Source of the DNA: Bacillus sp. F19
GTDB lineage: Bacteria; Bacillota; Bacilli; Bacillales; Bacillaceae
Reading direction: 5' to 3'
Length of the DNA stretch: 64,000 bases
Assembly: GCA_023823795.1 (NCBI GenBank)
Contig: CP085710.1
Coordinates: forward strand, 4,428,001-4,492,000
The notes under the pieces were generated by a model. It was not told the origin of the DNA. It made no database searches and saw only the letters and a program-made list of their open reading frames with translations. Made by a program: the position numbers and the translations under genes. This document shows, piece after piece, positions 17,372 to 40,563 of the stretch. Position 1 is the first letter of the stretch. The number at the start of each line of letters is the position of its first letter.

Positions 17372-17407
17372 TTAACCGATAGAACCTTCCATTTCGAACT
17401 TGATTAA
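17372..17407 (-). pseudogene. sufB: Displaced 3' end of sufB (left island boundary, attL-like)
   Basis: On the minus strand this reads TTA ATC AAG TTC GAA ATG ... TAA, encoding [11 protein letters not shown] and a stop, exactly the C-terminus of the intact SufB at 39166. The two DNA copies match at 33 of 36 positions in the same orientation. Sequence upstream of the remnant (from 17408) no longer matches sufB in frame. This is the pattern left when an element integrates into the 3' end of a gene and replaces its tail. Confidence 0.85.
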
Positions 17408-17577: not shown

Positions 17578-20500
17578 TTACTTGACATACACTTTACCAG
17601 CGGCTGTTCGACGAGATTCATTTCCATAAGCATCTCTCATCACCACTTCGATCACAGCACCGTTGATCGTGTTTTTTGGTGCCTTCCAGATACCAACATA
17701 GTGACCTTTTCCTTGTTCTGTTAATGGTATTTCAACAGAAGCGGCGGTTGCGGATGCATAGGCTGAAGGTACGCTTAACGAGAAGAAACCACTAATTCCT
17801 GGCTCACTATCTAGTTCGACAGTCAACGTCTTACCCCTTTTTATCACCACATTTTGATCTGGTTTTAAGTTTTCGATCGCAGGTGGATTAAACTTGGCGT
17901 AAACAGTGACTTCCTTGTTAGTTTCGTTTCCTGCACGGTCTTTTGCGGCAACTGTAAATTTATTTTCTCCATTATTGAGCAGGACATCTAGGGAGTAGGA
18001 GCCATCTTCTGTGACATTTGCTTTTTGACCATTAATTGTGACTTCGGATAGATGCAGGTCGGTCGCTTTTCCTTCGATTGTAACTGTTTGTTGATCCGTC
18101 TTAAAACCATCAGCAGGTTTGGTAATGGTTAGTTCTGGTTTTGCTTGGTCAAGGGTGATCTTCACTGGATCGGACGGTTTCGTACTACCTAGATCAGATG
18201 AAGAGGTAGCTGTCAGTACGTTTTCACCATTTTGCAGGGGAACCTCTACAGAGAAAGTGCCATCTTCTCTAGCTGTTGTGGTAGCCTCTTTTTTCCCTTT
18301 ATTGAAAAGATTAACTTGGGTAGCAGGTGAAGCTTGCCCTTCTACTGTGAAAGTAGATTGATTGGTGATGGCTGCATCTTTAGGTGTTGTAATCACTGGA
18401 GCCATTGCTTCATATTTTACCTGTGCCCGAATCATAATGTTCTCGTAAGGGGCTGGTCCAAACTCTCCATTATACATTATCCAACTGTGTCTCGCAGGTG
18501 TAGTACTTGTATCAGATGAAATTGCTGGCGTATTCGGGCTGACGTTTTTTTGGATATAGACCATATAGAATCTGTCTTTTACCACGATTCCTTTGTCTGA
18601 CAGATCGACAACCGTCCATTCCCCATTTTGCACAGCAGTTGCATCAAATGGACCCGCCACTATTTTACCAGGAGAACCATTCACGCCAGGTCCACTATTA
18701 TCATAAATGGCAACCTGAAAGGCTGTTCCACCTGGTTTTATATTTGAGGTAGATGAATCCTGGAAACGGAAGAGACCAGCAGTGACTAAAGCGCTAGTTT
18801 TGCCTTCAGGTAGAAACATTTTTACAGCATAACCACTATTAACGGCATCCCATGTGCGATGGGCTTCTGCTGTCCCATCATCATAGCCTATCTCACTAGG
18901 ATAGCCGACAAATGGTTGTAACGAGACATTTTGTTCGATATTTCCGTTTGCAGGGACAGTAATCCTGATATCTTGGTTCAGATAGAAAGGCGCGGACACA
19001 TGCAAGGTATAGTCTCCTTCATAGGCAGTGATAGAGAAGCGTCCGTTTTCATCTGTTTGTACAGGTTGAACAATCGCGTCTTCGATCAGAGAGAGTGTTG
19101 CGTTAGCTATCGGCTGACCTGTTTGCTTGTTCGTGATCGTTCCGTTAATCGTTCCTTGCGGAAGCGGTTTTAAGGTGAAATTGGCTTCTGCTTCACCATT
19201 GGGAGCAATCTTCACTCGTTGATCTGAAGAGTAGTATCCATATGACTCCGCACGTAAGGTGAACTCACCAGCAGGATGAGTCGACATAACATAGCTGCCA
19301 TCAGCTGGGTTGGTGACAACAGAACGTCCTGATTCAAGCACGCTCACTGTAGCTCCAAGTGGCAGGGACATAGGTTTGTCTGCTGTTGGCGTTACCGTTA
19401 CCGTGGCGGTTGGTGCCATCACGTCTTGGATTTCTGTTAGTTTGATTGCTTCCGAATTTTCCAATTGCACATCTTCTAGATCAATATTTGCTGTGGTAAG
19501 TGCTGTATTACTTAAAGCGACATCATCGATATACCACCCTGTTGTCGTGAATTTATCGTCTGTGGTGACGTTAAAGGCGATATAAATTAGTTTACCAGCA
19601 TATGCGGATAGATCGATTTGGTGTTGGGTCCATGTCGAAGAGTTACCAGTAAAGCTGGACAGATGCTGCCAGTTTTGTTTGTCTGTCGACACAAACACAT
19701 TACCAAAGTCTTTGCTTTCTTTGTCTTCAAGTTGATACCAGTCTTTAAACTGAAGATAGCTGTTACCTTCAGGCAAGATGATTGGAGGCATCATCAAGTT
19801 CATATTGGCATTGAAATCAACATGACCATTTAACTTGGTTCCGTACACTTTTTCACCAGAAGCGGCCTTTAATGGCCCAGCGGTAGGTACTCCCCATTCC
19901 CAAGAGTTTTGGGTACCATAAGAAATCCAGCCATTCGGTGTAGATTCAAAATCTTGAAAATATCCGGTGCTGATTCCAGTTTTGACAGGTACGTTGTAAT
20001 TATCAGATGTAACCTCGTGTGCACCATAATCTGTGATGCGCCAACGATAGGTGAGGGTTGAGTTCTGTACTGCTTCAGCCGGAATTACAGCTTGGTACGT
20101 TCCGCCTTTATAGTTACCTGTGGTACGACTTGCCATTACTGTTTGCCAATCGGCAGTTTCGCTTGCACGGTATTGTAGCTCTACACTTTTTACGCTGACA
20201 TTGTCTTGTGCTTGAACAGTTAGAGGTAATACCATATTCGTATAGGTTTCTTTTGGAGCGGTATGCTCATAAGTTGGATTTTCAGTATCTTGACCTTCAT
20301 GAACCACTTGTCCTTGAACTCCGCCTATTCCGGTTAAAATGGAGGAGACAGCGTTATAGGCGTTAACTAGACCATGACCATAACCATTGTTTGGCGAAGT
20401 TGGATATCTAGAGTCAGTTAATGGAATTGCGGTTTCAGTTAATATTTGTTCAATAGCATCAACGGAAAGAGATTTATTCGCCTGCTTGATCAAAGCAACG

Positions 20501-21873
20501 ACTCCAGCAAGGGCTGGTGAAGCCATCGAAGTTCCGCTCATTAATCCATAGTTGCTGCCTGGTATAGAAGAGCGAATGCCCACACCTGGAGCAGAGATAT
20601 CTGGCTTCATTACTCCATATGCCGAAGGACCACGTGAGGAGAAATCAGCAATCTGATTTTTAGTATCTGTTGCGCCAGTAGCAAACGATTCCGGATAATT
20701 GCCTGGCAAGCCGACGCTTCCATCAGCAGGACCGGAATTTCCAGCAGAGAATGCAGGGAAAATTTCAGCTGCACGCCAGTTTTTCACCATTTGTCGGTAA
20801 AAATCATCGATAAAAGGGCCGGAACCCCAAGAGTTGTTCACTATGTCTGGTGCTTTTTCTGGATGCGGATTGCCCTGGGCATCCTTTGGAGCTAGAACCC
20901 ACTCTCCAGCTGCCAGTAGATCATCAGTGGTTGCACCCTGCGCTGTAAAGGCTTTTACAGCAATCCATTTTGCACCTGGAGCGACACCGATTTGGTTCGT
21001 GCCATTTGGCTCAGAACCCACCATCGTACCTACGGTGTGAGTTCCGTGACCATGATCATCATAAGGTGCAGCTTTCCCATTAATAGCGTCAAACCAGTTG
21101 TAAGTGTTATCAGGTTGATCTGGATTGGCTGGGTCGTAACCCCGATACTTTGTTTTTAAAGCTGGGTGATTCCACTGGACTCCTGAATCAATACTAGCAA
21201 CTACAATTCCTGTACCATCAATGCCCATCTTCCAAACTGGTGGTGCCTCGATTTTTGCCATATTCCATTCGGTTGAATCGAGAGGATTAACTATTGATTG
21301 AGTGGATTTGTTACTGCTTTCAGATGGGATTAACTGTACCTTTTCGTTAGGTAGAATTTCTTCGACTTCAGGGAAGGTAGCAAGTTTTTCCATCACTTGT
21401 TTGGTTCCTGTTACCGCCATGCCGTTTACGATATAGAAAGATTCAAACTCTTTAACATTTCCTTTCTTTTTTTCTTGTTCTAGATAAGTTTTGACCGAGT
21501 ATTGAGTTTCATTGGCTTTAGCTCGGAGAGTGGAGACGATAGCTGAGCGTTTCATCAATTCGGTTTTGGCTGCTGTTTGTTTTTGAGCTTTAGCTTTTTT
21601 AGCTGTTTCGATTGCAACTTTGTTTGTATCCACTTGATCTTTAAATTCTAATAAAAATGAAACAGTTTTATTCTTATTAAACTGATCGTTCAGTTTTTTG
21701 TCTATCTTTGTTTCCGCACTCTTAGATTCTCCATCAGAACTTTCCTGAAGAGAAATACTTTCTTTGGAGTTGGGTTTAGCCAAAGCGAAATTTGGTAAAA
21801 AAGTAGAGATCAACAATAATGCACATAAAATAAAACTAAATGTGACGTGGCCTTGTTTTTTCCTTTTTATCAA
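17578..21873 (-). CDS. bpr: Bacillopeptidase F, active-type secreted serine protease
   Basis: Large extracellular subtilisin-family (S8) protease of 1431 residues, matching B. subtilis Bpr in size. Order: signal peptide (1-32), propeptide (to about 200), S8 domain (about 205-510) with catalytic Asp229 (ASIDSG), His276 (HGHGTH), oxyanion Asn379 (SAGNSG) and Ser449 (SGTSMASP), an MAM/immune-inhibitor-A-like domain (about 635-790), carboxypeptidase-regulatory-like repeats (about 840-985) and two Ig-like repeats near 1150-1330. The start is a TTG with AAGGAGG upstream. It lies downstream of an inactive paralogue with the same architecture. Three tandem 20-bp repeats lie 61 bases before the start. 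Confidence 0.95.
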   Translation of the reverse strand: MIKRKKQGHVTFSFILCALLLISTFLPNFALAKPNSKESISLQESSDGESKSAETKIDKKLNDQFNKNKTVSFLLEFKDQVDTNKVAIETAKKAKAQKQTAAKTELMKRSAIVSTLRAKANETQYSVKTYLEQEKKKGNVKEFESFYIVNGMAVTGTKQVMEKLATFPEVEEILPNEKVQLIPSESSNKSTQSIVNPLDSTEWNMAKIEAPPVWKMGIDGTGIVVASIDSGVQWNHPALKTKYRGYDPANPDQPDNTYNWFDAINGKAAPYDDHGHGTHTVGTMVGSEPNGTNQIGVAPGAKWIAVKAFTAQGATTDDLLAAGEWVLAPKDAQGNPHPEKAPDIVNNSWGSGPFIDDFYRQMVKNWRAAEIFPAFSAGNSGPADGSVGLPGNYPESFATGATDTKNQIADFSSRGPSAYGVMKPDISAPGVGIRSSIPGSNYGLMSGTSMASPALAGVVALIKQANKSLSVDAIEQILTETAIPLTDSRYPTSPNNGYGHGLVNAYNAVSSILTGIGGVQGQVVHEGQDTENPTYEHTAPKETYTNMVLPLTVQAQDNVSVKSVELQYRASETADWQTVMASRTTGNYKGGTYQAVIPAEAVQNSTLTYRWRITDYGAHEVTSDNYNVPVKTGISTGYFQDFESTPNGWISYGTQNSWEWGVPTAGPLKAASGEKVYGTKLNGHVDFNANMNLMMPPIILPEGNSYLQFKDWYQLEDKESKDFGNVFVSTDKQNWQHLSSFTGNSSTWTQHQIDLSAYAGKLIYIAFNVTTDDKFTTTGWYIDDVALSNTALTTANIDLEDVQLENSEAIKLTEIQDVMAPTATVTVTPTADKPMSLPLGATVSVLESGRSVVTNPADGSYVMSTHPAGEFTLRAESYGYYSSDQRVKIAPNGEAEANFTLKPLPQGTINGTITNKQTGQPIANATLSLIEDAIVQPVQTDENGRFSITAYEGDYTLHVSAPFYLNQDIRITVPANGNIEQNVSLQPFVGYPSEIGYDDGTAEAHRTWDAVNSGYAVKMFLPEGKTSALVTAGLFRFQDSSTSNIKPGGTAFQVAIYDNSGPGVNGSPGKIVAGPFDATAVQNGEWTVVDLSDKGIVVKDRFYMVYIQKNVSPNTPAISSDTSTTPARHSWIMYNGEFGPAPYENIMIRAQVKYEAMAPVITTPKDAAITNQSTFTVEGQASPATQVNLFNKGKKEATTTAREDGTFSVEVPLQNGENVLTATSSSDLGSTKPSDPVKITLDQAKPELTITKPADGFKTDQQTVTIEGKATDLHLSEVTINGQKANVTEDGSYSLDVLLNNGENKFTVAAKDRAGNETNKEVTVYAKFNPPAIENLKPDQNVVIKRGKTLTVELDSEPGISGFFSLSVPSAYASATAASVEIPLTEQGKGHYVGIWKAPKNTINGAVIEVVMRDAYGNESRRTAAGKVYVK

Positions 21874-21933: not shown

Positions 21934-21993
21934 TGTTGTAGATGGCCACCAACTGTTGTAGATGGCCACCAACTGTTGTAGATGGCCACCAAC
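21934..21993. repeat. Three tandem 20-bp repeats upstream of bpr
   Basis: TGTTGTAGATGGCCACCAAC occurs three times head to tail (21934, 21954, 21974). Each copy has GTTG/CAAC arms around an 11-base centre. A single related copy (TGTTGCAGATGAACACCAAC) lies at the same distance upstream of the paralogue at 26521. The flanking bases toward the start codon are also conserved between the two genes, so this is promoter-region sequence and may be an operator. Confidence 0.85.
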
Positions 21994-22043: not shown

Positions 22044-25000
22044 TTACTTAGGTCTTACGTTTACATACACTTTACCATCGGCTATTTGACGAGATTCGTT
22101 TCCATAAGCGTCTCTCATTACCACTTCGATTACAGCACCGTTAATCTTGTCTTTTGGAGCCGTCCAGGTACCAACATAGTGACCGTTTCCTTGCTCTGTT
22201 AATGGTATTTCAACAGAAGTGGCGGTTGCGGTTGCTGTTGTTGTTTTTGTTGTTGTTGTGGCTTCAGCTGCATAGGTTGAAGGTAAGCGAACAATGAAGG
22301 AGCCACTAATTCCATGTTCACTATCTAGTTCGACAGTCAACTTATTACCCTTATTTATCACCACATCTTGAGCTGGTTTTAAATTTGTGATTGCAGGTGG
22401 ATTAAACTTGGCGTAAATAGCGACTCCTTTGCTAGTTTCATTTCCAGCACGGTCCTTTGCAGTGACCGTAAATTTATTTTCTCCACTATTGAGTAATAGG
22501 CGTAGGGAGTAAGAGCCATCTTCTGTGACATTCACTTTTTGACCATTTATAGTGACTTCGGATAGATGTAGGTCGGTCACTTTTCCTTCAATCGTAACTG
22601 CCTTCTGATTTGTTTTGAAACCATCAGCAGGTTTGGTGATGGTTAGTTCTGGTTTTGCCTGGTCAAGGGTGATCTTCACTGGCTCGGACGGATCCGTACT
22701 ACCTTGATTAGATGAAGAGATAGCTGTCAGCACGTTTTCACCTTTTTGAAGGGGCACATCTACAGAGAAAGTGCCATCCTCTCTAGCTGTTGTGGTAGCC
22801 TCTTCTTTCCCTTTATTGAAAAGATGAACTTGGGTAGCAGGTGAAGCTTGCCCTTCTACTGTGAAAGTAGATTGATTGGTGATGGCTGCATCTTTTGGTG
22901 TTGTAATCACTGGAGTCATCGCTTCATATTGTACCTGTGCCCGAATCATAATGTTTCCCTGATTTTGAGGGAACGGTACCCAAACACCATTTTGCATTTG
23001 CCAGCTCCGACCCGCGCTTTTACTGTTTGTATCAATAGCAAGTCCTGGAGCATTCGGGTAGACGCCTTCTTGAAGATAGACAAAATAGAAGTCGTCGTTT
23101 ACGAAGATGCTTTCATTTGACAAATCGACAACCGACCATTGCCCATTCGTTAGTGCAGTCGAATCAAATGGACCCGCTATTTGTTTGCCAGGACCACCTT
23201 GATTTCCACTATTATCATAGATGGCAAGCTTAAAGTCTGTTCCACCTGGAGACGGCCATCCTTTATCCCAGAAGCGGACGAGACCTGCAGTGACTAAGGC
23301 GCTTTTTTTGCCCTCAGGTAGAGAAATTTTTACAGCCCAAGCATTTTTTTCAGTAACACTCCAAGATTTAGCATTTTCCGCTGTCCCATCATCATAGCCT
23401 ATCTCACTTGAATAGCCTACAAATGGTGGTAACCCAACATTTTGTTCACTCTGCCCGTTTGCTGGGATGGAGATGGTGATATCTTGGGTGAAAAAGAAAG
23501 GCGCGGACACATGTAATGTATAGGTTCCTTCATAGGCAGTGATAGAGAAATGTCCGTTTTCATCAGTTTGTACAGGTTGAATGACCGCGTCTTCGATCAG
23601 AGAGAGTGTTGCGTTAGCTAGCGGCTGACCTGTTTGCTTATTTGTGACCGTTCCGTTAACCGTTCCTTTCGATGCCGGTTTTAAGATAAAGTTGGCATCT
23701 AACGTACCATCTTTAGGAATCTTCACTCGTTGCTCGGAAGAGACATATCCATATGACTCTGCACGTAAGGTGAACTCACCAGCAGAATGTCTCATGGTAA
23801 AGCTACCATCAACTGGGTTGGTGATAGCAGAACGTCCTGATTCGAGCGCGCTCACTGTAGCCTCAAGTGGCAGGGTCATGGGTTGTTCTGCTGCCGGTGT
23901 GATCGCGGCGGTAGGTGCCATCACGTTTTGTATTTTTATTGTTTTGATGGTATCCGAGTTTTCCAGTTGTCTTGCATCTTCTAGTTCTACATTGGCTGTA
24001 GTAAGTGCTGTATTGCTTAAGGCGACATCATCGATATACCAGCCTGCTCTTTGGCCCAATTCGTCTGTGGTGAGGTTAAAGGCGATATAGATTTCTTGAC
24101 CAGCATATGCGGTTAGATCGATTTGGCGTTGAGTCCATTCAAGAGAGTTACCAGTGATGCTGGACAACTGTTGCCAGTTTTGTTTGTCTGTTGACACAAG
24201 CACATAACCATTATCGTAACCGCTTTCAATTTGATACCAGTCTTTAAACTGCAGATAAGTATTACCTTCAGGCACGATGATTCGAGGCATCATCAAGCTC
24301 ATATTGGCTCTAGCGTCATATTGACCACTTAACTTGGTTCCGTACACTTTTTCACCGGAAGCGGCCGTTGCTGGTCCATTGTCGTAGGCAGGTACTCCCC
24401 ATTGCCAAGTGTTTTTCGTACCATAAGAAGTCCAGCCGTTCGGTATAGATTCAAAATCTTGATAATAACCAGTGCTAATACCCGCTTTGACTGGTACTTT
24501 GTAATCGTCAGAAGTAACCGCATTTTGTCCATAGTCCGTGATGCGCCAACGATAGGTAAGGGTTGGAACCTGTATGGCATCAGCCGGAATCACGGCTTGG
24601 TACGTTCCGCTCTTATAGTTACCTGCGGTACGAGTTGCTGCTACTGTTTGCCATTCGGCAGTTTCGCTTGCACGGTATTCTAGCTCTACTCTTCTAACAC
24701 TGACATTGTCTTGTACTTGAACAGTAAGAGGTAATGTCATATTTTCAAAGTTTTCAGTTGGAGCGGTATGTTCATAAGTTGGATTCTCAGTATCCTGACC
24801 TTCATGACCCACTTGTCCCTGAACGCGGCCAAGTCCGCTGGTTATGGATGATACGGCCATATAGGCGTTTACTAGTCCATGACCATACCCATTGTTTGGT
24901 GAAGTTGGATAGGTGGAATCAGTTAATGGTGTTGCTGAATCTTTTAAAATTTTTTCAATTTCATCAACAGAAAGAGATGGATTCACCTGCTTCATCAAGG

Positions 25001-26456
25001 CAACGACTCCAGAAATGTGTGGTGCACCAAACATAGTCAGAGATAAAGTCGAATAGCTGCCACGTAGGTCGGAAGAGCGAATGTTCTCACCTGGAGCGGA
25101 AATGTCTGGCTTCATTACTCCATATGCCGAAGGACCGCGTCCTGAGTGAAACCCCCGCAGATTATTACTATCTGTATACCCAACAGCAAACGATTCCGGA
25201 TAGTTGGCTGGGGTCCAGATTAACCCTTCTTTATAGCTTGAATTTCCAGCAGCGAACACAGGGAAAATCTCAGCTGCACGCCAGTTTTGCACCATTGGAC
25301 GGAACCATTCATCGACTCCTTCTTGAACTGAACCCCATGAGTTGTTCACTACATCAGGTGCTTTTTCTGGATGTGGGTTGCCCTCAGCATCTTTTGGAGC
25401 TAGAATCCATTCTCCGGCTTCCAGTAGATCGACTTGGGTTCCGCTACCACCATAGCTTGAAAAGGCTTTCACAGCGATCCATTTTGCACCTGGAGCAACC
25501 CCAATTTGATTTGAACCATTAGGTTCAGAACCTACCATGATTCCTGTGACGCGGGTACCTTGTTTAGTTGTATCATTTGGAGTCGAACTCCCATTAACAG
25601 CATCAAACCAGTTGAAGGTATGGTCAGGTTGATCTGGATTGGCTGGGTTGTAACCCCGATACTTTTCTTTTAAAGCAGGGTGATCCCACTGGACTCCTGT
25701 ATCGATACTAGCGACTACAGTTCCCGTACCATCAAAGCCCATCTTCCAGACATTTGGTGCGTCAATTTTTGCAATATTCCATTCGACTGAAGTGGTGTCT
25801 GTCTGAGTGTCTTCCCGAGTGTCCGCTTGGGTGTCAGTTTGAGTTTCTGCTTTAGCATCAGCTGTTGGTTGAGTGGATGTATTACTGCTTTCATTCGGGA
25901 TCATCTGTACCGTTTCGTTAGGCAGAATTTTTTCGACTTCAGGGAAGGTTGCAAGTTTATCCATCACTTGTTTAGTTCCTGTTACCGCCATACCGTTGAC
26001 GATATAGAAGGATTGAAACTCTTTGACATTTCCTTTCTCTTTCTCTTGATTCAAATAGGTTTTGATCGAGTATTGAGTTTCATTAGCCGTAGCTCGGAGT
26101 GTGGAGACGACAGCCGAACGTTTCATTAATTCGGTTTTGGCAGCAGTTTGTTTTTGAGATTTAGCTTTTTTAGCTGTTTCGCTGGCAACTTTGTTTGTAT
26201 CCACTTGATCTTTTAATTTTAATAAAAATGTAACGGTTTTATCCTTATTAAACTGATCGTTCAGTTTTTTATCTACCTTTGTATTCACATTTTTAGATGC
26301 TGCCTCTGAACTTACTGCCTCAGAACTTTCATGAAGAGTAATACTTGCTTTGGAGTTGGAATTAGCCAAAGCAAATTGAGGTAAAAAAGTAGAGACGAGT
26401 AACAACATGCATAAAATTAAGTTAACTGCAACAAGACCATGTCTGTTCCTTTTCAT
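22044..26456 (-). CDS. Full-length bacillopeptidase F paralogue with dead active site (pseudoprotease)
   Basis: 1470-residue secreted protein with signal peptide and the same domain order as the neighbouring Bpr, aligning along nearly its whole length. The catalytic Asp is kept (SIDTG, residue 253 counting from the TTG), but the His of HGTH is Gln300 (KQGTRV) and the Ser of GTSMASP is Met476 (LSLTMFGAP). Both codons were read directly (25560-25562 and 25032-25034). The oxyanion Asn406 remains. Two simple-sequence insertions distinguish it from Bpr: an acidic Thr/Gln/Asp stretch near 200-224 and a Thr/Lys/Ala stretch near the C-terminus. The frame is intact, so this is not ordinary decay. Start TTG 26459 or ATG 26456, with AAAGGAG upstream. 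Confidence 0.93.
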   Translation of the reverse strand: MKRNRHGLVAVNLILCMLLLVSTFLPQFALANSNSKASITLHESSEAVSSEAASKNVNTKVDKKLNDQFNKDKTVTFLLKLKDQVDTNKVASETAKKAKSQKQTAAKTELMKRSAVVSTLRATANETQYSIKTYLNQEKEKGNVKEFQSFYIVNGMAVTGTKQVMDKLATFPEVEKILPNETVQMIPNESSNTSTQPTADAKAETQTDTQADTREDTQTDTTSVEWNIAKIDAPNVWKMGFDGTGTVVASIDTGVQWDHPALKEKYRGYNPANPDQPDHTFNWFDAVNGSSTPNDTTKQGTRVTGIMVGSEPNGSNQIGVAPGAKWIAVKAFSSYGGSGTQVDLLEAGEWILAPKDAEGNPHPEKAPDVVNNSWGSVQEGVDEWFRPMVQNWRAAEIFPVFAAGNSSYKEGLIWTPANYPESFAVGYTDSNNLRGFHSGRGPSAYGVMKPDISAPGENIRSSDLRGSYSTLSLTMFGAPHISGVVALMKQVNPSLSVDEIEKILKDSATPLTDSTYPTSPNNGYGHGLVNAYMAVSSITSGLGRVQGQVGHEGQDTENPTYEHTAPTENFENMTLPLTVQVQDNVSVRRVELEYRASETAEWQTVAATRTAGNYKSGTYQAVIPADAIQVPTLTYRWRITDYGQNAVTSDDYKVPVKAGISTGYYQDFESIPNGWTSYGTKNTWQWGVPAYDNGPATAASGEKVYGTKLSGQYDARANMSLMMPRIIVPEGNTYLQFKDWYQIESGYDNGYVLVSTDKQNWQQLSSITGNSLEWTQRQIDLTAYAGQEIYIAFNLTTDELGQRAGWYIDDVALSNTALTTANVELEDARQLENSDTIKTIKIQNVMAPTAAITPAAEQPMTLPLEATVSALESGRSAITNPVDGSFTMRHSAGEFTLRAESYGYVSSEQRVKIPKDGTLDANFILKPASKGTVNGTVTNKQTGQPLANATLSLIEDAVIQPVQTDENGHFSITAYEGTYTLHVSAPFFFTQDITISIPANGQSEQNVGLPPFVGYSSEIGYDDGTAENAKSWSVTEKNAWAVKISLPEGKKSALVTAGLVRFWDKGWPSPGGTDFKLAIYDNSGNQGGPGKQIAGPFDSTALTNGQWSVVDLSNESIFVNDDFYFVYLQEGVYPNAPGLAIDTNSKSAGRSWQMQNGVWVPFPQNQGNIMIRAQVQYEAMTPVITTPKDAAITNQSTFTVEGQASPATQVHLFNKGKEEATTTAREDGTFSVDVPLQKGENVLTAISSSNQGSTDPSEPVKITLDQAKPELTITKPADGFKTNQKAVTIEGKVTDLHLSEVTINGQKVNVTEDGSYSLRLLLNSGENKFTVTAKDRAGNETSKGVAIYAKFNPPAITNLKPAQDVVINKGNKLTVELDSEHGISGSFIVRLPSTYAAEATTTTKTTTATATATSVEIPLTEQGNGHYVGTWTAPKDKINGAVIEVVMRDAYGNESRQIADGKVYVNVRPK

Positions 26457-26520
26457 CAATTCGACTCCTTTCTGGAATTTGCTTACATTAAGACTTGAGA
26501 TACAGGGTTATATTTTTTAT

Positions 26521-26540
26521 TGTTGCAGATGAACACCAAC
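26521..26540. repeat. Single 20-bp copy of the bpr upstream repeat
   Basis: TGTTGCAGATGAACACCAAC, 17 of 20 positions equal to the unit tripled at 21934-21993 and at the same distance (61-62 bases) from its gene start. Confidence 0.75.
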
Positions 26541-27599: not shown

Positions 27600-30500
27600 T
27601 TAAGGTTGCTCCACCGTCATATAACGTGGAGTTGTGGTGATCTTTAGACCTGTTTCATCTTCCATCTCAGCGATCACTTTATATTTCCCACTAGGTAGAT
27701 CAGCAGATGGACTCCATTTTATATAAGCAGTCTCTGTATTCGCTTCTTTATAAGTATGAACCACTTTTCCTTCAGGATCTTGGATTGTAATGGTCCAATT
27801 CAATTTTTTCATGCCCACTCCCAAAATATGACCTGGCTCCTTTTGCGTTATTGGTCTAGCCCATACATCCCACGCTGAAAGGAATAAATCCTGTTTTACA
27901 TACGAGCGATCTCCGTATATTTCATAAGTGACATTACCTGCCCAGTCAAATGGCACTACGATTACACTTTTCGGTTCTTCATTTACTAGTAAGGACGATT
28001 GTGTTGAAGAAATAGCCTTATACTTGCCATCGACATAAACCATCGATTTTGTTAAGCCGCTTCCCCCTGCATTATCCATCATGTCCCAACTAATCATATA
28101 CTTATTTTCTGGTGTTTTGCTGACTTGAATATTTTCTGCTTTTGGTGCAACAGAATCTACATTAATCGGGAACTTAATCGTTTGTGGACGTGCTCCTTCA
28201 TAATCTAATGTGCTCTCTATAATAAATTGATACTTTCCGTCCGGAACGTATTTTCCATCCTCTGATTTCAAATCCCAGCGATATCCCCCCCAATAGAATT
28301 CGCTTCTTGACATTACATTTTTTCTAAATTTCCATGGTTCCCCTGTTTCAGTAACTTCACTGTAATCTCCAAGATTACGAACTCGATTACCTAATGCATC
28401 TTCAATGTACATGTGCACCTTTTTTACATTGCGCAAGGCGGTAAACATCGAATAAACACCTTGATTCGCAGCTTGTGGAGAGATGGCCATTCTTTCTTCT
28501 GAGAATGTTTTGGTCACTCTATCATAACCAATTGCTATAGCTGGTTTGCCAAGCCAGTTTTTCTGACCATAGTAAGGAAATAGAGCTGTTTCTTGTAAAA
28601 ATGAATTTTTGTCCCACATCGGTGCATCTAAGTTCTGTGGTTGATCCCAGTCACCATAAAAGCCCATATACGGCAAGGTTAAAGACGGAATCGAAGCTTG
28701 ATCTCCATTTTTCGGAACAAAGCGTACAAATCCCTCAACAAATATATTTTTCTTCAATCCATCTGGAAGTTTAATATCCACCTCTAAATCTTGAAGATGA
28801 CCTTTTTTCACGGTGAAAGTGGCAGGTGTTGTATGGCTAAAATCTTTTCCATTGATCTTCGCTGTTGCTCCTTCGATCCGCTTACTTGTTAGCTTTAGCA
28901 CTTCCATCGTCTTTTCAATTTTCCCATCGCGATTTAAATCTAGATCTTTCTGCTCGGTATCATCTGTTAAAAGATCTAGATAAACATCATAGGTAATCTC
29001 TTCTGGAGAAGATTTACCCGCTAACGCCTCTAACTCCAGCATAAATTTTACTTTATCATGCTTAATCTCTTTTAACTCCACAGCAGCTGCATTTTCTGGA
29101 TTAGCAAACTTATCTTTCACTAATACAGGTGTTTTTAGTGCATTAGCAATCTGCATCATCCCTGAGCCTTGTTTACGTGGAGAATATGGAATGTTACTTT
29201 CTGTTGTAGGGTCCATTAAGATTTGAGCTGTATTCATCAAAGCTGTTTTCGCCTGATAAATAGCATCTGAACCTCTCATCACGCCTTTTTCATAGAGCGA
29301 CTGTAACACTAGAGCTCCTGCACCCGCTACATGTGGCGAAGCCATCGAAGTTCCGCTATATATATCATATTTGTTATCCATGACAGTAGAATAAATCTTA
29401 CCGCCAGGTGCGGTAATTTCAGGCTTAAAATCAAGGGTGTGCGGTGCTCCATATGATGAGAATCCAGACATAGTCCCCTTGGTTTTATTATCAATCAAGG
29501 TTCCATTACCCACTTTAACCTTAATCTTTTCACCATCTTTCAAACGTTGAATCAGGGCTTTTCCTTCAGTGATCCCAGTACTAATTCCTGGAACGTTGCC
29601 ATAAGGAGAAAAAAGTAATTTGGCATAATCTCCTTGTGCCGCTAAAGGAACCATTATCACTCCTTTTGCTCTACCCTTTTGAGCAGGAGATTGTATGTAT
29701 TGTTCACTGCCCGCCCATTGTTGTTCTGCAACCACGATTTTGCCGTCTACATCTTTTCCAGCGAAATCCTGAGTACTACCATAGCCTACATAAACTAACT
29801 CAATCTCTTCACCTGGAGCAAAGACATCTGCCATTTGAACATAACCTGCATGGCGTTTGTAAATAAGTGGTTTCCCATCTGAAAGAGTAAGTGTGTCCAT
29901 ATGGATTTTATCATTTTCATAAGAAGCTACTTGTAAAGCATATGGACTTGAACCAGGTGCTCCTACTACTCCAATATCAGGATTCTGAGCATAAGGTTGA
30001 TGAGTGTATGCGGTGGATCCACTTTTAGTACTGTAGAATGCGTTTCCACCAGCTGCTACCACTAAAACTCCTTGCTCTGCAGCAGTACGAACTGCTTTTT
30101 GGATGGGGTCTTCTTCATTCACAAAATTAGCGTCTTGCCCTAAGCTTAAGTTGATGACATCGGCATCCATTTCAACCGCATGATTGAGTCCGGCTATGAT
30201 ATCGTCTGCAAATGCCCCACCCCCATAATCGGAAAAGACTTTTTCCGCTATGATCTGTACATCAGGTGCAATCCCTTTCACCCTGTCTACTTCATCGGTT
30301 CCATTAGCTCCAATCGTTCCTGCTACATGCATTCCATGTGAGGTAGCATAAGGAAGAACATCTTGATCTCGGTCCGCCCAATCATAACCCGCTGGAACTT
30401 TATCTGAATACCAGCGATCCTCTACAGCTGTTTCAGCTAATTTTTCTTGAATATTAGTAGAATTCCAATGGGCTTTCGCTTTTCCTCTGTCAGACATAGT

Positions 30501-31112
30501 TAGATCTTGATGGCGATAGTCCACTCCGGTATCGACAACAGCAACCACCATTCCCTCCCCATGGTAACCTAACTCTTCCCATACTTTTTTCGCTTGTACC
30601 ATGGATTTACTGGAGCTCATCGTTTGTTGATAAGTCTCTGCAATATGAACACGAGCCACTCCAGCTAATTTTTCGATTTCTTTGATATTTTTGAACAGTG
30701 TATCCATACTGAAGCCATTAATACCTGTCACAAAGTGATGTCGCTCTTTCACATTCAGCTTTTTCGTTTCTTTCATTTCTCGAATCAAGGATTGTTGAGC
30801 ATGTTTTAATTTTTTCTTTTCAGCTTCATTTCCTTTGGCACTATGTACAGGTTCTCCTGTCATTTCCACTATCACTCGTACAGTATCGTTAGGTGCATAC
30901 TGATTATCAACTGGCTTGTGGGCTTGGTCTGTCGCCTTTTCTTGATCAGACAGTTGGTTCTCTAACAAACTAGTCGCAAATTCTGGGTTGGTCAATAGTG
31001 ACTCGGTTGAAGTGTCATTCGTTTCCGCAAAAACTGTGAATGATGAAAGAAGTAAGGATGTTACAGCCGCAGTAGTCATCACTTTAAATGCCTTCAATTT
31101 ACTCTTGGTCAT
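27600..31112 (-). CDS. Lactocepin/C5a-peptidase-like secreted serine protease 1
   Basis: 1170-residue S8 protease. Signal peptide ends at TVFAE; an I9-type propeptide follows. The catalytic triad is Asp196 (AVVDTG), His261 (SHGMHVAG, Met replacing the usual Thr of HGTH) and Ser591 (SGTSMASP), numbered from the upstream ATG; Asn359 is in AGGN. A PA-type insert (about 420-545) lies between His and Ser, then Fn3-like and Ig-like domains. No LPxTG anchor is present, so it is secreted or held non-covalently. The ATG at 31112 is better spaced from AAGGAG than the one at 31118. The first 40 residues are almost identical to the paralogue at 33957-37469. Confidence 0.92.
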   Translation of the reverse strand: MTKSKLKAFKVMTTAAVTSLLLSSFTVFAETNDTSTESLLTNPEFATSLLENQLSDQEKATDQAHKPVDNQYAPNDTVRVIVEMTGEPVHSAKGNEAEKKKLKHAQQSLIREMKETKKLNVKERHHFVTGINGFSMDTLFKNIKEIEKLAGVARVHIAETYQQTMSSSKSMVQAKKVWEELGYHGEGMVVAVVDTGVDYRHQDLTMSDRGKAKAHWNSTNIQEKLAETAVEDRWYSDKVPAGYDWADRDQDVLPYATSHGMHVAGTIGANGTDEVDRVKGIAPDVQIIAEKVFSDYGGGAFADDIIAGLNHAVEMDADVINLSLGQDANFVNEEDPIQKAVRTAAEQGVLVVAAGGNAFYSTKSGSTAYTHQPYAQNPDIGVVGAPGSSPYALQVASYENDKIHMDTLTLSDGKPLIYKRHAGYVQMADVFAPGEEIELVYVGYGSTQDFAGKDVDGKIVVAEQQWAGSEQYIQSPAQKGRAKGVIMVPLAAQGDYAKLLFSPYGNVPGISTGITEGKALIQRLKDGEKIKVKVGNGTLIDNKTKGTMSGFSSYGAPHTLDFKPEITAPGGKIYSTVMDNKYDIYSGTSMASPHVAGAGALVLQSLYEKGVMRGSDAIYQAKTALMNTAQILMDPTTESNIPYSPRKQGSGMMQIANALKTPVLVKDKFANPENAAAVELKEIKHDKVKFMLELEALAGKSSPEEITYDVYLDLLTDDTEQKDLDLNRDGKIEKTMEVLKLTSKRIEGATAKINGKDFSHTTPATFTVKKGHLQDLEVDIKLPDGLKKNIFVEGFVRFVPKNGDQASIPSLTLPYMGFYGDWDQPQNLDAPMWDKNSFLQETALFPYYGQKNWLGKPAIAIGYDRVTKTFSEERMAISPQAANQGVYSMFTALRNVKKVHMYIEDALGNRVRNLGDYSEVTETGEPWKFRKNVMSRSEFYWGGYRWDLKSEDGKYVPDGKYQFIIESTLDYEGARPQTIKFPINVDSVAPKAENIQVSKTPENKYMISWDMMDNAGGSGLTKSMVYVDGKYKAISSTQSSLLVNEEPKSVIVVPFDWAGNVTYEIYGDRSYVKQDLFLSAWDVWARPITQKEPGHILGVGMKKLNWTITIQDPEGKVVHTYKEANTETAYIKWSPSADLPSGKYKVIAEMEDETGLKITTTPRYMTVEQP

Positions 31113-31141
31113 TAACATTGCTCCTTTTTTATTTGATTTAA

Positions 31142-32065: not shown

Positions 32066-32370
32066 ATGAGGAAAAGGAGAAACAAAAAAATTATTAATGT
32101 ATAACCGCAGGCTTGGCTACTGCATTACTTTTGTCAACAAGTACTGGTAATTCATTTGCTTATGATGACACCACCGCCGAAACGCCGGCCACCCAGGCGT
32201 CCCAGCCACAGCAGAACGGCTTGCAGGCGGCGACGCTCGCGCCCGCGCCTGATGGCACCCCAATATTTGAAAATATTTCCGCTTTATGTTTTCATTCAGT
32301 AAGTCTGATGTTCAGAAATTGTATTTTGTATGATTTCCTAAGGTATTTCATCAATTATTTTTTTTATTAA
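32066..32370 (+). pseudogene. Frameshifted small secreted protein with a GC-rich insert
   Basis: AAGGAGGAGGAGAGG lies just before the ATG at 32066, which reads MRKRRNKKIINV and stops. In the next frame the sequence continues as a signal-peptide core and cleavage region (ITAGLATALLLSTSTGNSFAY), so one base has been lost or gained near the A7 run. The mature part is a Thr/Pro/Gln/Ala-rich segment (TTAETPATQASQPQQNG) from about 32166 to 32262 that is strikingly GC-rich in AT-rich surroundings. It sits directly upstream of the HTH-TPR regulator, a position a signalling-peptide precursor could occupy, but this is only a suggestion. Confidence 0.5.
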
Positions 32371-32491: not shown

Positions 32492-33714
32492 ATGTATGAG
32501 GGGAGAATCATTAAGTTTTATCGAGAAAAAAAAAACTCACCCAAGAACAATTAGGAAAAGATATATGTTCAACATCTCATATTAGTAAAATAGAGTGTGC
32601 CCAAACAACTTACGCTACACAAATTACCAATTTATTATGTGAACGACTTGAGATTAATATGGAAGAAGAGTTAACTAAACTTACGAATATCAAACAAAAA
32701 TTACTGTATTGGCAAGAAACAATTATTATGCAGCTTTATAATGAAATGGATCAAATTAATAGTGAGCTAGAGAACGAGGAATTATTAGAAATTTCGAAAT
32801 ATGTATACATGTATCAATTACTCCGAGCTAGGTATTTGCTTATGTATCATAAGTCAAATGAGGCATTTAAAATCCTCAAAAATATTCAAAGAAAATTAAA
32901 TAGACTCTCACCTTATGAAACCAATTTATTAAAGCATACATTTGGTATTTATTATTTAGAAATACAAGATTATATAAGTGCAATTCAATCGTTTAAATCA
33001 ATTCAAATTACTGTTTATAATAACCCGGAATATTATTATCATCTTGCAGTTTCTTATCACACGACACAATCACCTATGTTAGCATATTATTATGCCGAAA
33101 AGGCACATCAATATTTTAAGAACATCAATAACTATCTTAGAGTCATTGATGCAGAGATGCTAATGCTTATTCAAGTAAAAGATGACTTCAGTACAGATGA
33201 TGAAATTATAAAACGATTAAAAAATTTAATTAAGAGTTGTGAATTATGTAATGCCCCTGATCGGAAAGCAAGAGTATTGCATAATCTTGCTTTTGAATAT
33301 TTACGAAGGTCTAACTATGAGCTAGCAAGTATTTATTATAAAGAATCTATGGCAATAAAAGATCAAGTATCGAATTCCTACTTACTTTCTTTAGAGGGGT
33401 ATATTCGAAGTTCATTAGAAGGAGGACTTTTACCAAAAAATGAACTTATTATACTTGCTGAAAATGGGTTTACGATTGCAAATAATATGAATTCTTTATT
33501 ATATATTCATCTTTTTAAACTCCTTATCTATTTATTAAAGTGTAAAGAGAAAGAATATTATCAATATTTAGTCGATAAAGCATTACCAATGTTCAATAAA
33601 AATGGATTTTATTATTTAATTGAACGCTCGAATAAAGAATTATTTAATTATTATTCCACGATGAGATTAAATGATCAGGCAATGGAAATCGCTAAATTAC
33701 TCATAAAAAATTAA
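32492..33714 (+). pseudogene. HTH-TPR quorum-sensing-type regulator (RRNPP family), frameshifted at an A10 run
   Basis: An ATG at 32492 (AGGGGGG eight bases upstream) opens MYEGRIIKFYREKK and stops after 20 codons. One extra A in the A10 run at 32526-32535 would join it to KLTQEQLGKDICSTSHISKIE, an XRE helix-turn-helix, then about 350 residues of helical TPR repeats (for example YYLAVSYHTTQSPMLAYYYAEKAHQYF-like pairs). Total about 407 residues, the size and layout of NprR/Rgg-like RRNPP regulators that bind signalling peptides. The region from 32659 is open and could be made as a TPR-only protein. It is flanked by secreted-protease genes, the usual targets of such regulators. Confidence 0.8.
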
Positions 33715-33956: not shown

Positions 33957-36900
33957 TTATTGAACAACTGTTACTGTTTTAGGCGTTGTTGTAACTTTAA
34001 AACCGTCTTTTGTTACAAGATCAGCTGAGATAAAGTAATTTCCATTTGGCAGCTCCGGTTTAGGTGCCCATTTTTTATGAGCTTCTTTTTCATTTTTAAC
34101 TTCAAACGTATCGATTATATTTCCATTTGCATCTTTAACATAAAACGTCCAGTCTACTCTGTTTGAAGCAAAGTAATCAATTTCTGTTGGAGTATTTTTG
34201 CTTAAATTTTTGGACGGAAATACACTAGAATTTGAAAGAACTATCCATTCACTCATATATTTTGGACTTTGATCTCCCCAAACTGTGTACGAATGGTTAA
34301 ATGCGTTATCAGCCGCTTTAACAACAATACTTTTCGGTTCTGCATTTACGAGGAATTTTGTCTCTTTTCCTGGAGTGTAATAATTTCCGTCAACCCAAAC
34401 CATTGCAGCAACATATCCACTTCCGTTTTCATTATCTGTGCCTTTCCAGGAAATTTCGTATTTTCCATCCTTTGGAGTTACAGTAATGTCTGTAACTTTA
34501 GGAAGTATGGAATCTACTTTAACAGGCATTTTAACTTCCTGCGGTTTTGCACCTGGATAGTCTAATGTCGTTTTAATCACATATTGATAATTTCCATCTG
34601 GTACAAATTGTCCAGACTCATCTCTCATATCCCAATAATAGAGTTCATTGTAATAAGTGTCCCCAAATGACATGACATTCTTTCTGAATTTCCATGGTGT
34701 TCCTGTATATTCACTGAAGTCACCTAAATATTTTACGATATTACCGGATTGATTTTCTATATACATTTCTGTTTTTTCCAAGTTACGTAAAGCTGTAAAT
34801 GAAGAATAGATACCTAATAGATGGAAGTTTGGCGAGATGGCAATTTTGCTAAGATCAAACGTTCCAGTACTAGAATCATATCCCTTTGGATAACGCTCTG
34901 AAGTGCCATCCCAAAGTGCAGTATAACCTAAAAATGCATCTTTCTCCCATGCTGGAGGATCAATATTTTGTGGTTCATCCCATTTTCCATAGAAGCCCAT
35001 ATATGGTATAGATAAAGGTACGACTTTATCTTGGTCTTTGGCAACAGGAACTAGACGAACAAATCCTTCTACAAAACTATTTGACTTTAAGGAATCTGGT
35101 AAATTCACATTAACTGTCAGCTGTTTTGTTTGACCAGGTTTAATTTTAAGAAGTGCTCCTTCTGTTTCTGTAACTTTATTATCATTGACAGTAACAGTTG
35201 CACCATTGATTCGTTCACTTTTTAATTTTAGATACTCCTTGGATTCCAAGTCACCATCATTGTCTAAATCATATTCTTTCATTTCAGTTTGATCCTTTAA
35301 AACATCTACAAAAACTTTGTATTCGATTTCCTCACTATTATTTTTTCCCTTAGGAGTTTCAAAAGCTTCCACATTTAATTTAAAGCTTGTATTTTGGCCT
35401 ATTTCCTTCAAAGCAACCGCTCCAGCTTGTTCTAAAGGCGTGTTTCGACTTGTCACAATGACAGGCGTATTAATTGCATTTTGAATTTTCATTAAACCAG
35501 ATCCTTGTAAGCGTGGTGAATATGGAACTTCACCGTTTGTTCTTGGATCCATGACAACATTAGCTGTATTCATTAAAGCAAGCTTTGCTTTTAACACCGT
35601 ATCTTCTGAATGGGTTAATCCTTTTTGATAAAGTGCCTGCAATAACAATGCAGAACCGCCTGCAACATGAGGAGCGGCCATCGATGTACCGCTCATCACT
35701 TCATAATCATTACCAGGTACAGTTGAATAAATATTTCCACCTGGTGCAGAAATCTCTGGTTTAAAATCTAATGTACTTGGAGAACCATAGGATGAAAAAC
35801 TGGACATTTTGTCTTTCTTTGCGTTATCTATCCAAGTTTCCCCTGCTAATTTCATCTTGACCATTTGACCACTTTTAAGTTTATTTACTAGTTCTTGCCC
35901 TGGAGCCTTACCTGTTGTAGCAGTTGGAATGGAATTTTCAGTTAATCTTAGATAAGGATAATCAGTCGCCATATTATCAGCTGGTATTATGATTACCGCT
36001 TTTGCTCCATACTTTTCTGCGTTAAATTGAATAGAAGAATAAGAATAATATTCATTTAATAATTTTATTACTGCAATGTAGCCAGTTTTATTGGCAGGAA
36101 AATCAGCTTTGTTTCGTCCTTCGTTTACATATACCATTTCATACTCTTGATTCGGATTTAAAAATCTTGAAAGTTTAAAGTTATATTTTGCGGGAAACAT
36201 CGTTTGATCTTGGAAAGGAAGCTTTAAACCATTTGTTTCAGCTAAAGAATTTAAATGCATTTTTGTATTTTCATAGGATGCTACCGATAAAGCATATGGA
36301 CCTACACTCGGTGCACCAACTGTCCCAATATCAGGATTTTCTGCATATGGCTCTAAAGCAGAGTCAAGGAATAAATTATTTTTCGTACTATGAGCGGAAT
36401 TACCAGCTGACACTACAACAAGAGTTCCATGTTCTGTCGCAACTCGGATTGCTTTTTGTACAGGATCGTTTTCTTCACCTACATAGCCTGAGTCAACACC
36501 TAAGCTCATGTTTATCACATCTGCATCCATAGTAATGGCATGCTCAATCCCTGCGATAATATCATCCTCGTAGGCTCCGCCGGCATTATCTGAAAATACC
36601 TTCTCCGCTAATAGCTGCACACCTGGTGCAATACCCTCGACACCGTCATTCGCTTCGTCCCCGCCTGCTCCAACTGTCCCAGCAACGTGTGTACCATGCG
36701 GACTGCCATTTGCTCCAGGAATGACATTGCTATCATTGTCTGCCCAATCATAGCCTGTTGGGACTTTATCGCTATACCAAATATCGTTTACGTCTGTCTC
36801 TTTAAATTTTTGATTGATTTTATCTTGAGTCCACTTTTCTTGCGCTTTGGCTGTATCTGATAGTTTCATATCTTTGTGTGTATAATCAAGCCCGGAATCT

Positions 36901-38296: not shown

Positions 38297-38653
38297 CTTC
38301 TTCCAGGTGTATACCTTGCCTTAGAAAAGTTTCATAGTAAGGAATTTAGTAAAACGATACAAGAGGGGCTTTTTAACAAAGGTGAAGTGCTACCTACATT
38401 TTGGGAAGTATTCATTCTTCTTTTGCTTTTTAAAGTCTTCTTAGATGTAGGGACTAGATCTCCTAAAAGTACCGTAATATTAGTTTCACTCATAGCTGCA
38501 ATTGTTATTGGAGAAACCGCTGTTACAGCCAACATCATTCACCCACCTGGATTAATTGTTGTGGGATTGAGTACGTTTCTATTATTTTTAATCACATATA
38601 TGGGACAAATCGGAGTAGTTTTTACTTTAAAGTATCTTTTCTTATTCGCCTGA
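38297..38653 (+). pseudogene. C-terminal fragment of a GerA-family germinant-receptor subunit
   Basis: The frame reads LLPGVYLALEKFHSKEFS, then GEVLPTFWEVFILLLLFKVF, then GETAVTANIIHPPGLIVVG. This matches the GerA/GerKA pattern (LLPGLYVALTTFH, PTFxExLLLELxFE, IGxAAVxAxIVSP). The N-terminal soluble domain and first membrane helices are missing, and the sequence upstream (38066-38296) is disrupted. Not functional. Confidence 0.65.
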
Positions 38654-38673
38654 AGCCGTTAGATTTATACGAA

Positions 38674-39165: not shown

Positions 39166-40563
39166 TTATCCGATTGAACCTTCCATCTCGAACTTGATTA
39201 AACGGTTCATTTCAACCGCATATTCCATTGGAAGTTCTTTAGTGAATGGTTCAATGAATCCCATAACAATCATTTCAGTTGCTTCTTCTTCTGAAATACC
39301 GCGGCTCATTAGATAGAATAACTGCTCTTCAGATACTTTTGAAACCTTCGCTTCATGCTCTAAAGAGATGTTATCATTGAAGATTTCGTTATATGGAATC
39401 GTATCAGATGTAGACTGATTATCCATGATTAACGTATCACACTCAATGTTGGAACGTGCACCTTCAGCTTTGCGGCCGAAGTGAACGATTCCGCGGTACG
39501 TTACTTTACCGCCTTGTTTAGAAATTGATTTTGAAACGATTGTTGAAGACGTATTTGGTGCTAAGTGAATCATTTTCGCACCTGCGTCCTGATGCTGGCC
39601 TTTTCCTGCTAATGCAATGGATAATGTCATACCGCGAGCGCCTTCACCCTTAAGGATGACAGCAGGGTATTTCATCGTTAATTTAGACCCAATGTTTCCA
39701 TCGATCCATTCCATTGTAGCGTTCTTTTCACAAACTGCACGTTTTGTAACAAGGTTAAATACGTTGTTCGCCCAGTTTTGAATCGTTGTGTAACGGCAGT
39801 AGCCGCCGTCTTTTACGATAATTTCAACTACAGCACTGTGCAGAGAATTAGTTGTGTAAACCGGAGCTGTACAGCCTTCTACATAGTGCACATGTGCACC
39901 TTCATCAACAATAATCAGCGTACGCTCGAACTGACCCATGTTTTCAGAGTTAATGCGGAAGTATGCCTGAAGCGGTGTATCAACTTTGATGCCTTTTGGC
40001 ACATAGATGAACGATCCGCCGGACCATACAGCTGAGTTTAGTGCTGAGAACTTATTGTCAGTCGGCGGAATGACTTTGCCGAAATGCTCTCTGAAAATAT
40101 CTTCGTTTTCTTTAAGAGCTGTATCTGTATCTTTAAAAACGATACCCAGTTCTTCAAGATCTTCTTTCATATTGTGGTATACAACCTCAGATTCGTACTG
40201 AGCAGATACACCGGCCAAGTATTTTTGCTCTGCTTCAGGAATTCCAAGTTTATCAAACGTGCGTTTGATTTCCTCAGGTACTTCATCCCAAGAGCGCTCT
40301 GATTTTTCAGATGGTTTTACGTAATACGTAATTTCATCGAAGTTAAGTGCAGCCATATCGCCGCCCCATTGAGGCATTGGCATGTTATAGAAATGCTCCA
40401 GTGACTTCAGACGAAAATCAAGCATCCATTGAGGCTCGCTTTTCATGCGAGAAATTTCTTCAACAATTTCTTTAGTTAATCCCCGCTTTGAACGGAAAAT
40501 CGAAACGTCTTTATCAGCAAATCCATACTTGTAATCGCCGATTTCTGGCATTTTTTTAGCCAT
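39166..40563 (-). CDS. sufB: Fe-S cluster scaffold subunit SufB
   Basis: 465-residue core subunit of the SufBCD complex, which assembles Fe-S clusters on sulfur delivered by SufS/SufU. Conserved stretches include [26 protein letters not shown] and [31 protein letters not shown]. Last gene of sufC-sufD-sufS-sufU-sufB. Its final 36 bases are the right-hand copy of the island direct repeat, so the C-terminus is intact but may be element-derived. Confidence 0.98.

Follow-up and report, generated by a model that had tools for sequence, protein, structure and literature searches.

A 64,000-nucleotide stretch of Bacillus sp. F19 (contig CP085710.1 of assembly GCA_023823795.1, positions 4,428,001 to 4,492,000; hereafter the window) carries two adjacent genes for large subtilases, the upstream one of which encodes a protein that has lost two residues of its catalytic triad. 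Our preferred interpretation, to which we assign a probability of roughly 45%, is that this dead copy is a maintained, secreted pseudoprotease that acts as a non-catalytic partner of the active enzyme encoded just downstream. As far as sequences can tell, the dead lineage is present in ten genomes, has an open reading frame, has kept its fold residues and prodomain, is transferred together with the active gene, and has had its cleft remodelled. The presence of an intact dead copy beside a working sister, together with their joint transfer, suggests that the dead protein has a job of its own. We refer to the family as Bpr-type, bacillopeptidase F (Bpr) being the name that we presume to be appropriate; library searches returned S8 family names only. 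Subtilisins are among the best-studied enzymes, hence the interest of a maintained dead partner, and among the matches listed from the open-licence PMC literature, no title or beginning of an abstract described such a partner of a secreted Bacillus exoprotease.

A Bpr-type subtilase without its catalytic His and Ser

The frame of the dead gene (22044-26456, minus strand) runs uninterrupted over 1470 codons, with a TTG located three bases upstream (26459) as an alternative possible start. A signal peptide is recognizable by eye, and the main Pfam domains are those of the neighbouring intact copy, namely I9 propeptide, S8, MAM, carboxypeptidase-regulatory, Big_6 and Glucodextran_B. Both the S8 domain (PF00082, E-value 3.4e-48) and the Bpr domain order are present, and identity to ordinary Bpr-type proteins is about 45-60%. 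The Asp-His-Ser triad that characterizes an active peptidase is broken by replacement of His with Gln and of Ser with Met. Position 299 is His, and position 475 is Ser, in all 96 intact relatives described below; of 11 dead copies, nine have Gln and two have Arg at the former position, and at the latter six have Met, two Ser, one Gln and two Tyr. The initial annotation of this gene had placed the two replacements at codons CAA and ATG, and its coordinates proved exact (Table 1). Its statements that the catalytic Asp and the oxyanion Asn are kept, and that the accessory domains persist in an unbroken frame of about 1470 codons, likewise agree with what we observe. Judged by sequence, the dead copy is classed as a non-peptidase homologue of the Bpr-type S8 family and as a subtilase pseudoprotease, the triad being gone and the frame and fold residues retained.

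An AlphaFold2 model of residues 121-540 (420 residues) has a mean predicted local distance difference test score (pLDDT) of 87.4 and a predicted template modelling score (pTM) of 0.87, with low confidence in the linker. The TQTDTQ-type linker that leads from the prodomain to S8 is longer in the six dead copies that share both Gln299 and Met475. A two-residue insertion (337-338), located in the loop after KA(F/T), occurs in all nine Gln-type dead copies and is absent from the two Arg-type copies and from ten active mates.

Distribution and tandem arrangement of the dead copies

Relatives were sought by a genome scan (six relatives) and then in whole genomes by family, class and order, giving 1364 genomes, counted with overlaps. 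From 122 loci, we inspected 107 Bpr-type open reading frames that are distinct in sequence, score above 700 bits and match with an identity of at least 60% covering the S8 domain. Asp, His, Asn and Ser are intact in 96 of the 107, and 11 are dead. The dead copies reside in ten genomes, one of which (G505) carries two pairs. Listed in the order Asp, His, Asn, Ser, their residues are D-Q-N-M in six (this window, Sporosarcina globispora L001, Neobacillus niacini L002, Peribacillus alkalitolerans L003, G535 and G505), D-Q-N-S in two (Paenisporosarcina HGH0030 L004 and G727), D-Q-H-Q in one (Bacillus sp. 7884-1 L005) and D-R-N-Y in two (G504 and G505). Because the same Gln occurs in nine of the 11 dead copies, from separate genomes, the substitution is not due to chance, and an oddity confined to the source genome is ruled out by orthologues that share the dead residues. 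The Gln/Met pair, for which a survey of homologues had been proposed in the initial annotation, is shared by six of the 11 dead copies but not by all.

Two kinds of match lie outside the inspected set: one of 80% that is confined to the C-terminal part (contig C120 of genome G085), and many of less than 60% for which there is no locus; further and more distant dead copies may therefore exist. No pattern match to the dead copy was found among IMG/VR viral contigs, and none of the 293 matching records of PLSDB plasmids reaches an identity of at least 60%. Among the 81 genomes of the window's family, matches above 60% identity occur in the window genome only.

In all ten loci where the next gene is visible, an intact copy lies downstream of the dead one on the same strand, across a gap of roughly 105-175 bp. 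The contig of L005 stops 172 bases past its dead gene, and a C-terminal fragment on contig C120 of G085 may represent part of the L005 mate. An adjacent tandem pair in which both copies are intact, with an ordinary conservation pattern, was noticed incidentally in Polycladospora coralii (L006), no systematic search for such pairs having been made. A repeat unit of 19 bases precedes both genes of the window pair (Table 1). Among relatives, two copies of this repeat (some imperfect) are found in seven of nine; L004 and L117 lack it and carry a long hairpin in its place.

Inverted conservation and a remodelled cleft

The initial annotation had observed that differences from the active neighbour cluster around the active site. 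We defined a cleft rim of 70 residues from subtilisin subsites rather than from a solved complex, and the dead and active proteins of the window are 40% identical within this rim as compared with 77% over the rest of S8, which bears that observation out. In all ten dead/active pairs, identities amount to 83-95% in the prodomain, 67-84% in S8, 40-63% in the rim and 75-90% in the rest of S8. The prodomain is therefore better conserved than S8 in ten of ten pairs, as against none of 2659 ordinary Bpr pairs whose S8 identity is 60-85%. Ordinary pairs of higher S8 identity exhibit this order in 1 of 214 cases at 85-90% and in 11 of 154 at 90-97% (3081 pairs overall).

Of the 64 family-invariant S8 residues that lie away from the rim, all 11 dead copies retain 57 and the ten active mates 61. 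Within it, the corresponding figures are 10 of 23 for the dead copies and 20 of 23 for the active ones, and three of the 13 residues altered in the dead copies are the catalytic positions 299, 405 and 475. Since the invariant residues are mostly retained outside the rim and often altered inside it, the fold appears to have been held while the cleft was rebuilt. Across all ten pairs, the rims of the dead and active copies are correlated beyond the other domains (partial correlation 0.63), which is suggestive of co-evolution between them.

Selection on the two copies

Ratios of nonsynonymous to synonymous substitution rates (dN/dS, omega) were estimated for the six D-Q-N-M dead copies and, separately, for their six active mates, using our own likelihood and site-class scripts, in which the branch lengths of an IQ-TREE tree were scaled and whose results were not checked against PAML. 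For the dead copies, omega is 0.74 over the whole gene, 0.27 in the prodomain (p = 4e-6 against 1) and 0.41 in residues 1181-1470 (p = 6e-5), with values of 0.87 for residues 536-1010 and 1.51 for residues 1011-1180 (p = 0.11 against 1). For the active mates, omega is below 1 in residues 536-1010 (0.49), 1011-1180 (0.51) and 1181-1470 (0.56), and does not differ from 1 in the prodomain (1.24), the rim (1.14) or the rest of S8 (1.01). The dead copies contain no stop codons, as compared with 20.7 expected from 534 unconstrained changes in six copies; this expectation uses the stop fraction of the active gene (0.0387), and that of the dead gene itself (0.0405) would raise it to about 21.6. A pseudogene is rejected on the grounds that the frame is intact and that omega is significantly below 1 in the prodomain and C-terminus.

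The earlier proposal that the gene is under selection rather than decaying is supported by the absence of stops, the dead orthologues, the retained fold residues and these two regions, but sits less easily with the whole-gene value and with an S8 domain whose omega is near 1. That proposal had been said to fall if all homologues were intact and this copy evolved neutrally. The homologues share the dead site, contrary to the first part; the second is partly true, in that S8 is near neutrality.

Variable residues within S8 are concentrated in the rim, both in the six D-Q-N-M copies (25 of 70, versus 25 of 230 elsewhere; p = 5e-6) and in their active mates (18 of 70 versus 20 of 230; p = 7e-4). 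If residues within 6-10 of 299/475 are taken as the rim instead, the enrichment in the dead copy stays (11 of 26 versus 39 of 274; p = 0.001). Fits to S8 prefer models that include a class of sites whose omega exceeds 1 (twice the log-likelihood difference, 57.3 for the dead and 39.3 for the active copies), and high-posterior sites fall in the rim in 9 of 12 cases for the dead copies (p = 1.6e-4) and in 6 of 11 for the active ones (p = 0.02). The site lists obtained for the remainder of the dead gene and for residues 1011-1180 of the active one were set aside, since the class was empty in the underlying fits. Three control sets of six ordinary Bpr sequences have an S8 omega of 0.021-0.028 and no class above 1. 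Four ordinary groups of 7-8 sequences, drawn from the start of each cluster with eight as the maximum, reveal no rim enrichment, and in one of them the rim is less variable (p = 0.045). Whole-gene omega is 0.04-0.17 for ordinary pairs and 0.36-1.15 for tandem-family pairs, a comparison in which the ranges of synonymous divergence (dS 0.1-0.3 and 0.02-0.1, respectively) are disjoint and short divergence inflates omega. One ordinary Bpr pair with a dS of 0.001 and an omega of 0.60 is excluded from the former range.

Descent and mobility of the pair

Trees of the whole protein (support 100/99) and of S8 (100/100) unite the nine Gln-type dead copies in a single clade, which is not recovered in trees of the prodomain, middle or C-terminal regions. 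When the whole protein is considered, the two Arg/Tyr copies cluster with their respective active mates. A single clade of all 11 dead copies is rejected on the whole protein (p = 5.5e-5) and is not rejected on S8 alone (p = 0.20, or 0.31 without the cleft rim). The tree tests therefore point either to inactivation of the upstream copy on two separate occasions or to one loss and later exchange between the tandem copies.

A common block of ~9.06 kb is 93-95% identical in DNA between the window and five loci (L001, L002, L003, L116 and L114); in the flanking DNA beyond it, matches are limited to a TPR gene and short pieces. When the window is compared with these five genomes, sufB has a dS of 1.47-1.95, as against 0.051-0.075 for the pair. 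A sister species whose sufB is 99.4% identical (G050) has an ordinary Bpr at 54% only, and different DNA at the same place. These comparisons indicate that the dead and active genes move horizontally as one unit of ~9 kb.

In the window, the pair is held by an island of ~21.8 kb (17372-39201) with a 36-bp repeat of the 3′ end of sufB at either end (Table 1). Further copies of this repeat occur in G050 and G085 with different cargo at the same site, which has the appearance of an integration hotspot. The window's island contains five large open reading frames, and an integrase is not among them. The 36-base repeat was found in none of the nine other pair-bearing stretches, allowing nine mismatches, and those pairs accordingly sit in different settings.

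The island contains several other genes. A TPR protein (32659-33714, plus strand) weakly matches the quorum sensor NprR (E-value 7e-8), its best Pfam hit being TPR_12, below cut-off. The DNA of this gene is 94-97% identical near four of the nine other pairs (L002, L113, L115 and L116), has matches of 72-75% (some partial or on the other strand) in L001 and L003, and was not seen in L004, L114 or L117; a peptide-sensing regulator may travel with the pair. Two more large S8 proteases (27600-31118 and 33957-37469, minus strand) have His and Ser motifs that appear intact by eye. The segment 31314-31564, upstream of the first of these, shares 94% identity with the DNA that immediately precedes the pair in L113 and L115, as if the proteases shared one promoter type. 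An N-terminal remnant (32113-32370, plus strand) is similar by eye to the beginning of a 1266-residue protein encoded by the G085 island (L135, 8488-12288) and is probably a broken secreted-protein gene, and short fragments at 38387-38865 (plus strand) look by eye like a decayed gene for a membrane (germination-type) protein.

Table 1. Features of the tandem pair and its island, in window coordinates
Feature	Position	Strand	Description	Basis
Dead Bpr-type subtilase (putative pseudoprotease)	22044..26459	-	1470 aa, signal peptide to C-terminal immunoglobulin-like domains	Open frame, Pfam, orthologues
Gln299 replacing catalytic His	25560..25562	-	Codon CAA	Comparison with intact relatives
Met475 replacing catalytic Ser	25032..25034	-	Codon ATG	Comparison with intact relatives
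Catalytic Asp252, retained	25701..25703	-		Retained in 11/11 dead copies
Oxyanion Asn405, retained	25242..25244	-	His in L005	Retained in 10/11 dead copies
Prodomain, residues 61-186	25899..26276	-		Pfam Inhibitor_I9; purifying selection
Pseudocatalytic S8 domain, residues 236-535	24852..25751	-	Rim variable, core retained	
Two-residue insertion 337-338	25443..25448	-	In loop 332-345	
Region 1011-1180	22917..23426	-	Without Pfam name; fast evolving in the dead copy, not in the active mate	
Intact Bpr-type subtilase, partner of dead copy	17578..21873	-	1431 aa; D/H/N/S all present	
Three copies of GTTGGTGGCCATCTACAAC	21935..21993	-	Between both genes; candidate regulatory element	
Single related copy, GTTGGTGTTCATCTGCAAC	26522..26540	-	Upstream of dead gene	
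36-bp 3′ end of sufB	39166..39201	.	One island end	
Second 36-bp copy	17372..17407	.	Other island end; 3 mismatches	

Proposed role and alternative explanations

We propose that the dead protein would be secreted by way of its signal peptide. Because it lacks His and Ser, its own prodomain would stay uncut, and the protein would therefore be held in a zymogen-like state unless another protease processes it. A ligand, a foreign protein or the active partner could bind to the surface that the remodelled cleft offers, and such binding might alter how the active Bpr matures, how active it is or where it is targeted, much as CspC and CspA act in the CspB pathway. Faster change in both clefts suggests a pair that tracks a changing target. 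A bolder version, which we consider unlikely, is a horizontally mobile two-protein extracellular system in which positive selection drives joint diversification of the clefts of the protease and its own dead copy. Were this true, the dead cleft would be a recognition site for a variable target or for its partner, and every transferred pair would bring a matched specificity, as does a polymorphic effector together with its cognate partner. Six close pairs, two that are more distant and two whose dead residues differ provide a natural series for the passage from protease to non-enzyme, which also bears on what a dead cleft is selected for.

Several results weigh against a role for the dead copy as a selected partner. 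Omega in its S8 domain is near 1 (1.87 in the rim, p = 0.108 against 1, and 0.84 in the rest, p = 0.59; rim versus rest, a weak p = 0.053), and for this reason the dead cleft may be under relaxed constraint. The active mate is also fast evolving, with an S8 omega near 1 among the six relatives, so the signal of fast evolution is not special to the dead copy. With the rim redefined around positions 299 and 475, the enrichment in the active mate is gone (3 of 26 versus 35 of 274; p = 1), and the site-class test ignores recombination. The rim-rim correlation is not significant in the six closest pairs (0.31, p = 0.23). The prodomain tree places the six D-Q-N-M copies beside their six active mates (99/97), apart from the other dead copies, a placement that points to exchange within the tandem, and dS for the window pair is 0.32 in the prodomain as compared with 0.51 in S8. 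The likeness of the prodomains within a pair may thus stem partly from past exchange. Exchange cannot, however, account for a rim that is less alike than the rest of S8.

If selection acts on the prodomain and C-terminal domains only, S8 would be a passive, relaxed spacer, and the protein might serve in adhesion, in carbohydrate or matrix binding, or through a prodomain that acts in trans on the active Bpr. The loss of catalysis would leave the cleft free to drift, and an S8 omega near 1 beside values well below 1 in the prodomain and C-terminus is in keeping with this; but the non-cleft invariant residues of S8 are unchanged in the dead copies much as in the active mates, residues 121-540 fold confidently in silico, and a site class above 1 is favoured within S8, and we regard this explanation as improbable though still a serious one. 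A slightly poorer prospect is the paralogous decoy, which the initial annotation had listed among possible roles and in which the dead copy would soak up inhibitors that target the active Bpr. The signal peptide, the adjacency and the common fold would suit such a role, fast cleft change in both copies fits an inhibitor race, and an inactive cathepsin B paralogue that binds cystatin provides a precedent (PMC7054455). The rim of a decoy should nevertheless mimic that of the enzyme it guards, and here it is the least similar part of S8 in ten of ten pairs, with 13 of the 23 family-invariant cleft residues altered. Because the dead rim is only 40-63% identical to that of its mate, the decoy is disfavoured and that part of the annotation weakened. 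The rim comparison is an indirect test of a decoy.

Retention or gain of enzymatic activity through a different mechanism seems very remote: L004 and L088 have the catalytic Ser and oxyanion Asn alongside Gln in place of His, yet His and Ser are both gone in nine of the 11 dead copies, in which Ser has become Met, Gln or Tyr. We give the least credence to a recently inactivated or decaying duplicate. Although both catalytic residues are gone and the whole-gene omega is high, the nine orthologous copies with the same Gln, the missing stops and significant purifying selection in two regions all speak against decay, unless every genome happened to be sampled shortly after the loss. The maintained partner remains the interpretation that we favour, at the probability given above.

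Comparison with known systems

The dead copy has the domain order, signal peptide and propeptide of bacillopeptidase F, from which it differs in the missing catalytic His and Ser, the tandem arrangement with an active copy and the inverted conservation. In the scabies mite, families of inactivated serine protease paralogues (S1 family) occur within one organism; these belong to a different protease family and a eukaryotic parasite and are not known to constitute a mobile tandem pair. In Phytophthora, XLP1 is reportedly a paralogous decoy for XEG1. Paralogous decoys differ from the present case in that the rim likely to face an inhibitor is not shared between the dead copy and its active partner. 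The inactive cathepsin B1.6 of Trichobilharzia is likewise an inactive paralogue beside an active enzyme (PMC7054455). Inactive serine protease homologues are known from prokaryotes, where one survey gives 42 among 966, in 91 genomes and five families (PMC2605481).

The clearest parallel is provided by the Csp proteins. In Clostridioides difficile, CspC keeps its Asp, has lost His and Ser, and has an uncleaved prodomain held by a longer strand 4-helix 4 loop (PMC6636752), and it pairs as a heterodimer with CspA, itself a pseudoprotease, in a complex that lacks CspB (PMC12880746). Like the dead copy, CspC and CspA are subtilisin-fold pseudoproteases in which two catalytic residues are changed and whose pathway includes an active family member. 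The clamp loop of CspC, between strand 4 and helix 4, is longer than that of CspB, and the Gln-type dead copies have their two-residue insertion in loop 332-345, which by subtilisin topology presumably occupies the clamp loop position. CspC and CspA are spore proteins, whereas the dead copy has the make-up of a Bpr-type multidomain exoprotease. Assignment of the dead copy as a CspC is rejected by its score against NCBIfam NF040808 (17.2 bits, with a cut-off of 675), and the jelly-roll insertion of ~130 residues in the S8 domain of CspC and CspA is absent from the dead S8 match, which spans 243-527 (285 residues) and covers profile positions 1-288. By analogy, the dead copy would resemble CspC and CspA in the logic of its arrangement, not in family.

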